Shown here piece by piece: positions 3,823 through 7,160 of a stretch of 7,160 nt of DNA. The position numbers and the translations under genes are program-made. The stretch spans positions 1 to 7,160 of the forward strand of contig JAGRHX010000244.1 in the NCBI GenBank assembly GCA_020444775.1. Direction: 5' to 3'. This stretch comes from Gammaproteobacteria bacterium (GTDB lineage Bacteria > Pseudomonadota > Gammaproteobacteria > HK1). The notes under the pieces are model-generated. The model saw only the letters and a list, made by a program, of their open reading frames with translations. It made no database searches and was not told where the DNA came from. Within the stretch, counting starts at the first letter, position 1; every line of letters begins with the position of its first letter.

Positions 3823-5190
3823 TCAATCGAAGCGTGCGTCGACCTGCTCGGTCAGTCGCAGCAAGGCTGCGGAAACCTCGACCGGATACTCGACCTGTCG
3901 GTCCAGGCCGAGCAAGGTCTCGGGCAGCGCATCCAGTGACGCGCGGGCACGGTCGCGTACGTTGTCCAGCGACGGGGATTCGGCGAGTCGTTCGCCGTTG
4001 CGCATCACCGGTTCCAGCAAGGGCTGGCCGGATGCGCTGTCGTCGTCGAGGGTGAGCATATCCCCCAGCATCTTGCCGTGCCGGTCGAAGCGACGGTAGA
4101 CCTGCTTGCGCCCGGGCCAGGTGGATTTGGCGCTGGAGCGCTTGCGGCGCGCGATTCCAGCATACTCCTCGAGCTTGTAGACGCAATCCAGGTAAGGCGC
4201 GTCGGCGCTCACGTCCAGCGAGGTGCCGATGCCGAATCCATCGATCGGTGCGCCCGCTTCGACCAGGGCCGCGAGCGCGTACTCGTCGAGGCTGCCGCTG
4301 GCAAATATCCTGATGTCGCGACATCCTCCCTGGTCGAGGATCGAGCGGACCTCGCGCGACAGGACCGCGAGGTCGCCACTGTCCAGGCGCACCGATGCGA
4401 TCGCTATACCCTCATGAGCCAGCTCGCGGCTCAGCTCGACCACACGTCGTGCGCCCTGCAGGGTGTCATAGGTGTCGATCAACAACACGACGTTGTGCTG
4501 GCGCTCGCGCGAGAAGCGGGCGAAGGCCGCATACTCGTCCTCGTGCGCCTGGATGAACGAGTGCGCCATCGTGCCATAACAGGGCATGCCAAAGCGTTGG
4601 CTGGCGAGCACGGTGGCGGTGCCGGCAAAGCCGGCCAGATAGCTGGCGCGTGCCGCGAGCAGGCCGGCTTCGGCGCCGTGCGAGCGGCGCAGGCCGAAAT
4701 CCACCAGGATGCGATCCGGAGCGTTGAGCACGCAGCGCGCGGCCTTGCTCGCAATCATGGTCTGGAACTGTAGGAGGTTGACCAGTCGGGTCTCGACCAG
4801 CTGCGCCTGCGGCAGTGGCGCGGTGACCCGCAGGATCGGCTCGTCGGCGAAGAACACGCTGCCCTCGGGCATGGCGTGCACGTCACCGCTGAAACGAAAG
4901 TCACGAAGCTGCTCGACGAACTCGGGCTTGAAGTGACCACTGGCGGACATCCAAGCCAGCTCCGCGTCGGTGAAACGCAGGTCCTGCAGGAAGTCCAGGG
5001 CCTGCTCGAGGCCGGCTGCGATCAGATAGCTGCGTGCCGGCGGTAGACGTCGGACGAAGAATTCGAACACCGCGGTCTGCTGCATCTCGTGCTGGTAATA
5101 GACCTCCATCATGGCCAGCTGGTAGAGATCCGAGAGCAGCGCGCTGCGACCCGGATCGCTCGGGGCGGGCTCGGCTTGCGCTGTCCTCAT
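3823..5190 (-). CDS. pncB: Nicotinate phosphoribosyltransferase (NAPRT)
   Basis: This cytoplasmic enzyme joins nicotinate to PRPP, with ATP hydrolysis, to give nicotinate mononucleotide, the entry step of the Preiss-Handler route to NAD. The 455-residue protein shows the family landmarks in order: LLSDLYQLAMMEVYY (18-32), AGLEQALDFL (59-68), ADEPILRV (115-122), LVDFGLRRSHGAEAG (162-176), GTMAHSF with the conserved H210 that is phosphorylated in the family, LIDTYDT (237-243), RLDSGDL (268-274), FASGSLDEY and GFGIGTSL, and near the C-terminus the PGRKQVYR segment. Length fits the family and no key motif is missing. The ATG at 5190-5188 is preferred to more upstream frame extensions: it overlaps the nicotinamidase stop as ATGA, and AAGGA lies 9 nt before it. 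The pairing with pncA, whose product is its substrate, makes the assignment firm. Confidence 0.96.
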   Translation of the reverse strand: MRTAQAEPAPSDPGRSALLSDLYQLAMMEVYYQHEMQQTAVFEFFVRRLPPARSYLIAAGLEQALDFLQDLRFTDAELAWMSASGHFKPEFVEQLRDFRFSGDVHAMPEGSVFFADEPILRVTAPLPQAQLVETRLVNLLQFQTMIASKAARCVLNAPDRILVDFGLRRSHGAEAGLLAARASYLAGFAGTATVLASQRFGMPCYGTMAHSFIQAHEDEYAAFARFSRERQHNVVLLIDTYDTLQGARRVVELSRELAHEGIAIASVRLDSGDLAVLSREVRSILDQGGCRDIRIFASGSLDEYALAALVEAGAPIDGFGIGTSLDVSADAPYLDCVYKLEEYAGIARRKRSSAKSTWPGRKQVYRRFDRHGKMLGDMLTLDDDSASGQPLLEPVMRNGERLAESPSLDNVRDRARASLDALPETLLGLDRQVEYPVEVSAALLRLTEQVDARFD

Positions 5191-5807
5191 GCGGCCAGAT
5201 CCTTCAGGCACAACCCCTGGGCGCCCCTTTGGTGCATGTCCTCGATCGCCCGTTCGCCGTCGCCTGCCTGGACGTTCACCGCGCGTATGCCGTCTTCGAG
5301 CAGCACCACCTCGAAGCCTGACTCGAGCGCGTCCCTGACCGTGGCGATCACGCAATAGTCGGTTGCGAGCCCGGCGACGAACACCCGGCGCACATCACGC
5401 GCGCGCAGCATCGTAGCGAGGTCGGTCTGCTGGAAACCGGAGTACGCGTCGCGGTCCTGGCTCGTCGCCTTGTCGATGACGATGGCGTCGTCGGGCAGAC
5501 GCAGGTCGTTGGCAAAACGTGCGCCGGCGCTGTCGCGCACGCAATGCACCGGCCACGGGCCGCCCTGCGCGGCGAACGAGCAATGGTCGCTCGGATGCCA
5601 GTCACGAGTGGCGACGATCGGCAGCCCGGCGGCGCGGAAGCGCGCTATGTAGCCGTTCAACGTTTCGATGAGTCCCTCCGCCTCCGGCACGCCCAGCGCG
5701 CCGCCGGGCAGGAAGTCGACCTGCACGTCGACCAGGATCAAGGCATCGCCTGTCGCCGGTTGCAGAGCCTTGTGCCGGCTCGGTGGGGAAGAGTCATGTG
5801 TGTTCAT
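5187..5807 (-). CDS. pncA: Nicotinamidase (isochorismatase-like hydrolase)
   Basis: This enzyme deamidates nicotinamide to nicotinate and ammonia, feeding the next gene's phosphoribosyltransferase. The 206-residue protein holds the catalytic triad D27 (LILVDVQVDF), K113 (IDKATSQ) and C152 (GLATDYCVI), and the metal ligands D69 and H71 (TRDWHPSDH) and H88 (PVHCV). These line up one for one with D10, K111, C156, D52, H54 and H86 as I recall them for E. coli PncA, including the WP.HCV..S.GA block, which separates it from plain isochorismatases. The start at 5807-5805 is chosen over the longer open frame because GGAGG sits 5 nt upstream (5817-5813). The final TGA shares bases with the pncB start, so the two are translationally coupled. 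It is the first gene of its leftward operon, with the promoter expected in the 5808-6049 spacer. Confidence 0.95.
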   Translation of the reverse strand: MNTHDSSPPSRHKALQPATGDALILVDVQVDFLPGGALGVPEAEGLIETLNGYIARFRAAGLPIVATRDWHPSDHCSFAAQGGPWPVHCVRDSAGARFANDLRLPDDAIVIDKATSQDRDAYSGFQQTDLATMLRARDVRRVFVAGLATDYCVIATVRDALESGFEVVLLEDGIRAVNVQAGDGERAIEDMHQRGAQGLCLKDLAA

Positions 5808-6049
5808 GTCCGCCTCCGGTCTGTTGCAGTATGGGTGACGCGATGCCGGCGCGCTCCCGGCCGACACGCGCTCATGCAACGCGTCCGAAGAGTCTACAGA
5901 TGTCTGGCCGACGGTGGTCGTGATCCCGCGAGGGCTGGCTGCCGGCGGCCCGCGGAGTGGCAGTCCGTAGTCCCACGACTAGGAACTTAAATCCATGTCA
6001 TCAATCATGAGTTAGGGTTGAACGCAAGCCATTGCGGGAGATCGAGACG
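5808..6049. promoter_or_regulatory. Divergent spacer between pncA and the PilZ gene, presumed to hold both promoters
   Basis: The two genes point away from each other across 242 bp, so promoters for both must lie here, but I see no convincing -35/-10 pair on either strand. An AT-richer patch at about 5984-6020 stands out against the GC-rich background on the PilZ side. A 5-bp dyad TAGTC-CCAC-GACTA sits at 5968-5981. No known NAD-regulator site was recognised. Confidence 0.35.
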
Positions 6050-6463
6050 ATGCATGGCGAATCCATTCCGCGGATCAAGCATCGATTGCACGAGCGCTGC
6101 GGCGCGCGCTTCGATGTGGAGCTCAAGCTACACGCCAACCGAACGCTGTCGTGCACCGCGCGCGACGTATCGGTGGACGGCATCTTCGTCGAGCTGGATG
6201 CCGAACGTGCCGGATTGCATTCCGGGTGTGGCGTACAGGTGGTGTTCTCGGCCTATCAGGACGGCGCGCTGCATCACTACCTGGTGACGGGGGTGATCAC
6301 ACACTGCAATGACGACGGTGCCGGAATCATGTTCGCCGCCTGTGAACGGCCACTCGCGCAGTTGCTCGCCGCGCTGGCGAACGCCGATGCCAGGCAGCGT
6401 GAATACGCCAGGGTCGCCCTCAACGGCGGACGCTTTCCCAAGCCGCGTGCGTCAAGGCTCTGA
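6050..6463 (+). CDS. Stand-alone PilZ domain protein (predicted c-di-GMP binder)
   Basis: PilZ domains bind cyclic di-GMP and act as receivers that change motility, adhesion or enzyme activity. The 137-residue protein is essentially one PilZ domain. The RxxxR motif is present before strand 1 (R16-C-G-A-R20), and the DxSxxG motif is intact as D39-V-S41-V-D-G44 in ARDVSVDGIFVEL. The tail of the barrel is recognisable in VVFSAYQDG and GAGIMFAAC. Two more arginines, R8 and R12, extend the spacing R8-x3-R12-x3-R16-x3-R20. The ATG at 6050 is chosen because GGGAG lies 9 nt upstream; the frame is open from a TTG at 6032. There is no signal peptide, membrane segment or output domain, so it must act through a partner. 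Its end overlaps the convergent hydrogenase-like gene. Confidence 0.87.
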   Translation: MHGESIPRIKHRLHERCGARFDVELKLHANRTLSCTARDVSVDGIFVELDAERAGLHSGCGVQVVFSAYQDGALHHYLVTGVITHCNDDGAGIMFAACERPLAQLLAALANADARQREYARVALNGGRFPKPRASRL

Positions 6464-7039
6464 GCGCGGGTCCTGCGCCGGCGTCGAATGCCGAGGTCGG
6501 CCCGGTGAGCGGTGTCGGTCGTTTGCGCTCATGACCTCGAGCAGGGCCAGCAGGCCGCGCAGGATCTCGGTCGGCGGCGGTGGGCAGCCGCGCACGTGCA
6601 GGTCGACCGGGATGAACTCGGCGACCGCGCCCGCGCATGCGTAGCTGCCGGCGAACACACCGCAGTCCCAGGCACAGTCGCCGACCGCGACCACCCACTT
6701 CGGATCGGGTGTGGCCACGTAGGTCCGTTCCAACGCTTCCTTCATGTTCCAGCTCACCGGTCCGGTGACCAGCAACACGTCCGCGTGCCGCGGAGAAGCG
6801 ACGAAGCGCAGCCCGAAGCGTTCCAGATCGTAGATCGGGTTGCTCAGGGCATTGATCTCGAGCTCGCAGCCGTTACACGAGCCGGCATCCACCTCGCGGA
6901 TGGCCAGCGAACGTCCGAGCTTGTGCCGGGTGCCCTCGGCCAGGGCGGTGCCGAGCGCCTCCAGCGTGTCGCCGTCGGGTGCCGGTCGATCGATGCTGAC
7001 CGGCCCGCGGGTCAGTGCGTCCAGCAACAGTTTGAACAT
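6452..7039 (-). CDS. Complex I NuoB-like / group-4 hydrogenase-like small subunit
   Basis: The 195-residue protein belongs to the HycG/HyfI/EchC and NuoB group of iron-sulfur subunits, which carry the electron-relaying [4Fe-4S] cluster next to the large subunit. All four cluster cysteines are seen: C55 and C58 (AGSCNGCELEINALSNP), C122 (VGDCAWDCG) and C152 (RGCPPPPTEIL). The stretch DLERFGLRFVASPRHADVLL with LVTGPVSWNMKEAL is typical of the hydrogenase-type rather than the NuoB type, which has paired CC. Residues 1-45 form a leader without membrane helix, and about 27 residues follow the core after LLALLE, a basic, low-homology tail. The start lies 10 nt after the large-subunit stop, with GAGG within that junction, so the two are one operon. 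It is the last gene of the operon seen and converges with the PilZ gene. Confidence 0.9.
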   Translation of the reverse strand: MFKLLLDALTRGPVSIDRPAPDGDTLEALGTALAEGTRHKLGRSLAIREVDAGSCNGCELEINALSNPIYDLERFGLRFVASPRHADVLLVTGPVSWNMKEALERTYVATPDPKWVVAVGDCAWDCGVFAGSYACAGAVAEFIPVDLHVRGCPPPPTEILRGLLALLEVMSANDRHRSPGRPRHSTPAQDPRSEP

Positions 7040-7049
7040 GGCGCTGGCC

Positions 7050-7160
7050 TCACAGGTCGTGGCCCGAGTACGAGCAGTTGAAGGATTTGTTGCACAACGG
7101 GAAGTCGGCGACGATGTTGCCCTCGATCGCGGCCTCCAGCAGCGGCCACTGGAAGCAGGA
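7050..7160 (-). CDS. C-terminus of a complex I/hydrogenase-related large subunit, cut by window edge
   Basis: Only the final 36 residues are visible, from the window edge to a TGA at 7052-7050. They read SCFQWPLLEAAIEGNIVADF followed by PLCNKSFNCSYSGHDL. The stretch after IEGN resembles the end of HycE/HyfG/NuoD-type large subunits, where I recall 'SDAPLIIGSLDPCYSCTDR' for true hydrogenases. In that alignment both cysteines that hold the nickel-iron centre are replaced (DPCYSCTDR against NCSYSGHDL), and no C-terminal maturation peptide follows. That fits hydrogenase-related (Ehr-type) complexes. The gene lies directly upstream of the small-subunit gene and is surely co-transcribed with it. 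The family call rests on this neighbour and on the tail; the remaining four-fifths of the protein are not seen. Confidence 0.75.
   Translation of the reverse strand, partial: SCFQWPLLEAAIEGNIVADFPLCNKSFNCSYSGHDL

Follow-up and report, generated by a model that had tools for sequence, protein, structure and literature searches.

The 3' end of an Ehr operon on a gammaproteobacterial contig and the possible fate of its former nickel site

The window analysed here is the whole 7,160-nucleotide stretch of a gammaproteobacterial contig, and our subject is the two genes at its right end. The minus strand read from position 7160 translates to SCFQWPLLEAAIEGNIVADFPLCNKSFNCSYSGHDL, with the stop codon at 7052-7050. 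These are the last 36 residues of a HycE/NuoCD-like Ehr large subunit plus its stop (7050..7160, minus strand), an assignment based on the translation and on alignment with relatives, and the gene runs off the window. The C-terminus is PLCNKSFNCSYSGHDL followed directly by the stop, and the subunit is of the group 4 hydrogenase-like kind. Ten bases separate this stop from the start of the small subunit, which is present at its full length of 195 residues (6452..7039, minus strand). Judged by sequence, the window holds the 3' end of an operon for an energy-converting hydrogenase-related (Ehr) complex, a kind that is already in print. It contains 36 large-subunit residues and no membrane genes, and everything said below about the N-terminus comes from relatives. 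A PilZ-domain protein (6032-6463, plus strand) is convergent to the operon and overlaps its 3' end by 12 bases. At 3823-5879 on the minus strand a nicotinate phosphoribosyltransferase gene adjoins a nicotinamidase-like gene that scores just below the curated cut-off. The two are an NAD salvage pair, and we see no link between them and Ehr.

The ending of the large subunit is not a chance feature, because it recurs. Contigs were scanned with the small subunit; at least 577 relatives were confirmed and the best 80, mostly titled Alphaproteobacteria, were kept. NKSFNC...stop is the C-terminus in 74 of these 80 loci, one of which (L052) has only the last 14 large-subunit residues. Five of the remaining six finish in NKSFNG or NKSING, and L050 starts too near the small subunit to tell. 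P0003, a full-length large-subunit relative from L029, was the query for protein searches. PLCNKSFNCSYSGHDL is the exact 16-letter ending of 107 of 120 relatives of P0003, these being the best 120 of 7999 proteins scored. The window as a query against plasmids gave one record, at 9% coverage and 75.7% identity.

What happened to the nickel site can be read from the alignment of P0003 with E. coli HycE (7z0s_E, phmmer E 1.1e-57). It is gap-free at both ends of the site, with PLCNKSFNCSYSG over PLIIGSLDPCYSC in the C-terminal stretch and RTSGDS over RVCGIC at the N-terminal site. Because there are no gaps at the C-terminal stretch, the two C-terminal nickel cysteines correspond to Ser and Gly. 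The preliminary description had claimed this exchange, and the window translation and the alignment together bear it out. In the window the Ser that replaces the third ligand (the C of DPC) is at 7071..7073 and the Gly that replaces the fourth is at 7062..7064, both on the minus strand. Aligned through P0003, the window has no DPCxxC. The four ligand columns were then counted in a large-subunit alignment of 148 rows that includes 135 Ehr-type, 6 HycE-type and 5 NuoD rows; the counts leave out L040 and L091 by name, the short rows L032 and L049, and L050 and L052 for an unusable large subunit. Among the 135 Ehr-type rows the columns hold Ser (132), Ser (120), Ser (129) and Gly (135), and 115 rows read SSSG. 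A single ligand Cys is left in four of them (L065, L128, L134 and L139), and none has two or more. All four columns are Cys in 6/6 HycE-type rows, and the NuoD rows have D, S, V and E. The N-terminal RxCxxC was to be checked as well, and in the full-length relatives it has given way to RxSGDS or a near variant, which supports an Ehr complex. The protein also stops early. Three residues follow the fourth ligand column in 135/135 Ehr-type and 5/5 NuoD rows versus 35 in 6/6 HycE-type rows, so the maturation tail is missing as first reported. A group 4 [NiFe] hydrogenase has four Cys ligands and a C-terminal tail past the last one. The ligands are lacking in the window's C-terminus and in the relatives, and the tail is lacking in the window. 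Since all four nickel ligands are replaced, this should not be a [NiFe] hydrogenase.

The large subunit is nonetheless related to group 4 hydrogenases, as seen in the relatives and, for the window, in its 36 residues. In a midpoint-rooted tree of 65 rows, a 100/99 branch divides 53 of them from 7 HycE/HyfG and 5 NuoD rows, which form separate groups. The 53 are 51 Ehr-type rows plus the doubtful L148 and L149, whose branch of 6.13 changes per column we do not trust. This sets Ehr apart from HycE/HyfG and NuoD, in a tree that includes neither EchE nor the named Ehr proteins. HycE is the top match for the predicted fold of relative L045 (TM 0.84), ahead of NuoCD from the complex I of Aquifex and of E. 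coli. Its AlphaFold model has a mean pLDDT of 82.4, with residues 143-191 and 488-510 under 50. In the chamber the model is too poor to give distances.

The small subunit is NuoB/HycG/MbhJ-like (PF01058, 7.1e-32). Its best solved match is MbhJ (6cfw_J, 5e-35), followed by subunit 7 of E. coli formate hydrogenlyase (7e-34). The four iron-sulfur cysteines that it was said to keep are all there: Cys 55 (6875..6877), Cys 58 (6866..6868), Cys 122 (6674..6676) and Cys 152 (6584..6586), on the minus strand, each of them Cys in 133/133 relatives. Cys 55 and Cys 58 have the CxxC spacing of hydrogenases in alignments to MbhJ and formate hydrogenlyase subunit 7, and the window aligns with MbhJ there without a gap. 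The proximal [4Fe-4S] ligands of an Ehr small subunit are thus complete, in the window as in the relatives. Two other cysteines of this subunit are scattered. Cys 126 (6662-6664) is found in 45/133 relatives and Cys 135 (6635-6637) in 43/133, with both together in only 3, which is probably a lineage effect.

The large subunit of the window has extra cysteines of its own, a C-x5-C pair that the preliminary description thought worth attention. The first (PLC) is at 7092..7094 and the second (FNC) at 7074..7076, minus strand, and the FNC cysteine aligns to the Pro of DPC, beside the former nickel site. The pair is real in the window, but it does not extend to the family. In three Ehr groups of 95, 35 and 5 rows the first position is Cys in 92/95, 3/35 and 0/5, and the second in 91/95, 33/35 and 0/5. 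The group labels were assigned before the tree, in which L104 is next to the alpha row L054, whereas L084 and L130 fall among Burkholderia-type rows. A family-wide metal or redox site was considered and rejected, as five different residues occur at each position: Cys, Asn, Val, Leu or Ile at the first, and Cys, Gly, Leu, Pro or Ala at the second. On this alignment C-x5-C is a marker of lineages and not of the whole Ehr family; it may have a role restricted to those lineages.

The rest of the operon is known from the relatives. The gene order hyfB-hyfC-hyfE-hyfF-large-small occurs in 64/80 loci. The other 16 have fewer genes or an altered order; many of these are short contigs, and they were not inspected individually. 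Annotated plasmid records of Rhizobium, Burkholderia and the methanotroph Methylocalor have the same six genes. Antiporter-like membrane subunits had been predicted to lie upstream, and hyfB and hyfF do lie upstream of the large subunit. The antiporter-like and NuoH-like subunits of an Ehr operon are therefore present in relatives, outside the window. Taken with the loss of the ligands and with the tree, this supports the original identification of an Ehr complex. HyfB has E143, K223, K301, K352 and E407 in 83/83 sequences, HyfF has E139, K228, K307, K347 and E402 in 118/118, and E. coli Hyf has the same residues. We take these charged residues to be the pumping residues. HyfE is only weakly similar to its complex I counterpart, at 20.8 bits versus a Pfam cut-off of 26.1.

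No seventh subunit of the HyfH kind turned up. A tblastn search with E. coli HyfH (E 1e-3) had no match inside the Ehr operons of L001-L141. Over L001-L155 it matched L155 itself, two hydrogenase loci (L142 and L144) and, weakly, L127 and L117 (6e-4 and 7e-4), in both cases about 4 to 5 kb off the Ehr operon. Because HyfH is unmatched within Ehr operons, the operon seems to encode one cluster and no electron input module. Iron-sulfur proteins lie some kb from the Ehr operon at L117:12492-14098 and L127:3811-5416, and presumably these resemble RnfB and RnfC. NAD(P) transhydrogenase genes are near the operon in Burkholderia (L081:13082-15991). Neighbourhood did not reveal an electron donor or acceptor gene among the 45 largest gene clusters of the 80 loci, within up to 10 kb on each side, or among the 40 largest of a second set of 29 loci over the same distance. 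Leaving aside the six genes and the frames antisense to them, the recurrent neighbour is an XRE-type regulator, seen in 31 of the 60 loci that extend 700 bases or more upstream of hyfB. L082:6571-6891 is a small helix-turn-helix gene (PF13560, PF01381) directly before hyfB, and by eye 13/29 loci have an additional frame upstream that looks like an XRE regulator.

The nickel-site maturation gene hypD was looked for as well, and here the evidence is divided. We sampled 299 genomes of one phylum, of which 74 matched at E 1e-30, and called Ehr-type those with E below 1e-100. An Ehr-type large subunit is found in 57/299 genomes, and the C-termini of all 57 were inspected. G170, whose contig-end fragment (47% identical, E 7.7e-49) resembles the Ehr type, falls outside the 57. 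hypD was not found in 36 of these 57 genomes, nor in 7 of the 26 that carry the retrieved Ehr loci. Over both sets, which share one genome, 42/82 distinct genomes are without hypD and 40/82 have it; genome completeness is not given, and some of the absences may be gaps. The expectation that maturation genes would be absent thus holds for 42 Ehr genomes and fails for 40, and absence of hypD is not a defining Ehr trait. The seven genomes of the first set without hypD, the isolates Reyranella soli and Sphingobium psychrophilum among them, have PF00374 matches no stronger than 4.5e-8, or none at all. A weak NiFe-hydrogenase match of 4.5e-8 is at G020:C11:73282-73476, in a 557-residue frame away from the Ehr locus (the L067 genome, Caldovatus sediminis).

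If the nickel is gone, it is worth considering what the space around it is for. Loops of the large, NuoH-like and antiporter-like subunits form a chamber that is strikingly alike in MBH, MBS and complex I, as far as the text of PMC7684303 available to us goes. The Ehr version has sequences of its own. The NuoH-like subunit HyfC has a loop [VI]DNPxTHLELTM[VI]HEAM, in which eleven residues are identical in 90/90 sequences. At this position E. coli HyfC has DVAEAEQEL---QEG, so the Ehr loop is three residues longer, and alignments show it to be unlike formate hydrogenlyase subunit 4, MBH 6cfw_M and complex I chain 1 (7aqq_H) as well. The large subunit has the near-invariant residues SGD, ND and NKSFN, which differ from HycE and NuoD alike. 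Because the residues of both subunits are near-invariant, the chamber looks in use and not decayed. This conservation suggests that the former active-site chamber has been maintained. We suppose that the HyfC loop meets the SGDS turn and the NKSFN tail in one pocket. The strings THLELT and KSFNCS are absent from the literature text that we searched, and no statement about the chamber motifs was found there either; most subscription papers are outside its coverage. Judged by title and abstract, none of the 14 papers that motif strings brought up deals with hydrogenases or complex I. A very diverged operon with seemingly the same layout is found at L156:7375-14155 and L157:9102-15253, in genomes of 2.0-2.3 Mb; for L156 the family scan covered the large and small subunits only. 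Its large subunit has N, D, L and G in the ligand columns and is without the EPGHF loop, and its HyfC-like protein is without the DNPxTHLELTM loop.

We argue that Ehr is probably a six-subunit redox complex that is not of the [NiFe] kind, with a rebuilt chamber and ion translocation by HyfB and HyfF. Its parts would be the antiporter-like pumps HyfB and HyfF, the NuoH-like anchor HyfC, HyfE, the NuoCD/HycE-like large subunit and the NuoB-like small subunit. A soluble reduced carrier, perhaps ferredoxin, would dock on the small subunit. Electrons would run via the single [4Fe-4S] cluster to a small acceptor in the rebuilt chamber, which may be lined by the HyfC loop DNPxTHLELTMxHEAM together with three elements of the large subunit, the GPVHAGIIEPGHF loop, the SGDS turn and the NKSFN tail. 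Ion translocation by HyfB and HyfF would be powered by the redox energy. The simplest guess for the acceptor is a quinone whose mode of binding differs from that in complex I. One can go further and imagine that the chamber is a distinct, maintained catalytic site, a pocket for a substrate that no other complex I relative uses, but we hold this bolder claim only tentatively and would sooner bet against it. If it were true, a common complex performs a respiratory half-reaction that is not yet described. Several things stand against our preferred scheme. The neighbourhood listings gave no donor or acceptor gene, the window contributes no more than 36 large-subunit residues, and the fold model is unsure at the chamber. 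PMC7894505, a proteomics paper, in the part available ties Ehr abundance to formate and suggests that H2 is made from formate. And the two diverged operons in L156 and L157 seem to share the layout without having the chamber motifs.

The alternative that survives best, which we still consider unlikely, is that Ehr is simply a quinone reductase, a complex I in miniature that has no NADH module and binds quinone just as complex I does. Another match of the large subunit is the 49-kDa subunit of complex I (8.3e-33), and the large subunit terminates as close to the old ligand site as NuoD does. NuoD is above the NCBIfam cut-off in 53/57 Ehr genomes, therefore a respiratory chain is present. That same count means that Ehr stands beside complex I, and it gives no reason for a second identical activity. 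The headgroup residues are a more direct objection. Columns 320 and 370 of our alignment, which we take to be the positions of Nqo4 H38 and Y87, are His and Tyr in 5/5 NuoD rows, but in Ehr-type rows they are Ile (134/135) and Gly (133/135). Those two Nqo4 residues bind the quinone headgroup in complex I according to the accessible text of PMC7684303. On this column assignment, the relatives lack the His and Tyr of complex I.

It is distinctly less probable that Ehr is driven by formate, working with a formate dehydrogenase as has been suggested for Geobacter and Riflemargulisbacteria. Geobacter Ehr subunits are more abundant on formate than with hydrogen (PMC7894505) and an FDH-Ehr complex has been proposed (PMC6349859), in the portions of these papers open to us. 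However, only 18/57 Ehr genomes pass the TIGR01591 cut-off, a count over Ehr-carrying genomes whose completeness is not given. Some match at E 0.001 exists in 55/57, as is likely with this superfamily. Nor is there a formate dehydrogenase gene among the recurrent neighbours listed for the 80 loci or the 29 loci. As a general donor formate is a weak candidate on the count of 18/57 Ehr-carrying genomes over the cut-off.

That Ehr transports ions to keep pH or ion levels in balance, its redox part being regulatory or idle, seems improbable to us. The pump residues of HyfB and HyfF are intact, and in the text seen of PMC6688271 Methylacidiphilum ehrABCDLS is among possible pH homeostasis genes. 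Cluster cysteines kept in 133/133 relatives and near-invariant chamber residues nevertheless suggest a redox job. More remote again is a sulfane-sulfur (polysulfide) reductase with an open [4Fe-4S] cluster, like MBS of Pyrococcus. MBS is indeed a hydrogenase relative with lost nickel ligands, but three residues are missing from its cluster motif, which costs it one of the binding Cys, and it still has two of its four nickel cysteines (both points from the available text of PMC7684303). The Ehr motif is gap-free against MbhJ, and 0/135 relatives keep two nickel cysteines. That Ehr is still a hydrogenase, with an unusual metal site of Ser and extra cysteines, appeals to the mostly Cys to Ser change at three ligand positions and to the two cysteines beside the old site in the window, but it is hardly credible when neither cysteine is family-wide (0/5 in one group) and when the seven of 26 Ehr genomes lacking a detected hypD have PF00374 matches no better than those given above.

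The preferred reading, a redox complex with a rebuilt chamber, has practical consequences. The source names of the relatives range from NADH-quinone oxidoreductase subunit C to Ni,Fe-hydrogenase III large subunit, and labelling Ehr as a hydrogenase would wrongly assign hydrogen metabolism to such organisms. The near-invariant chamber residues are concrete positions to mutate. The six-gene design would be a simple model for redox-driven complex I-like pumps.

How does this compare with systems that are known? Ehr complexes without nickel-binding residues or the CxxC motif are described in the available text of PMC6349859, PMC10284858 and PMC10432482; the Ehr terms that we tried are absent from PMC12361115. 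These are group 4 hydrogenase relatives without the nickel residues, as here, a kinship that rests on published descriptions and not on sequences. Loss of DPCxxC is seen in the window itself and loss of RxCxxC in its relatives. The function or benefit of Ehr is called unknown in what we have of PMC10284858 and PMC10432482, in agreement with the earlier remark that its electron donor and acceptor are poorly known. The Methylacidiphilum genes are named ehrABCDLS and may serve pH homeostasis (PMC6688271, in part). Geobacter Ehr has NuoL-like, HyfE-like, large and small subunits, and its role was never investigated according to the accessible part of PMC7894505. Among solved structures, E. coli formate hydrogenlyase and Hyf come closest to the large subunit (7z0s_E) and to HyfC (7z0s_D), and they give the best fold match. 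They differ in having four nickel cysteines and the HycE-type 35-residue tail, and Hyf also has the HyfH subunit and another HyfC loop. MBH of Pyrococcus furiosus provides the best solved match of the window small subunit, MbhJ. Unlike Ehr it has a [NiFe] site on four MbhL cysteines and a Mrp-type Na+ path (PMC7684303, available text), for which the six-gene Ehr operon has no genes. MBS of P. furiosus is like Ehr in its lost nickel site and its ion-pumping arm, but its shortened cluster motif and two kept nickel cysteines (same source and extent) are not seen in Ehr; at the CxxC the window small subunit has no gap against MbhJ. Respiratory complex I has lost all four nickel cysteines too. The large and small subunits, HyfC, HyfB and HyfF are homologous to its subunits, and HyfE weakly so. 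Complex I differs from Ehr in having an NADH module. It differs as well in the adjacent cysteines of its cluster motif and in its quinone-binding His and Tyr, both taken from the part of PMC7684303 at hand.
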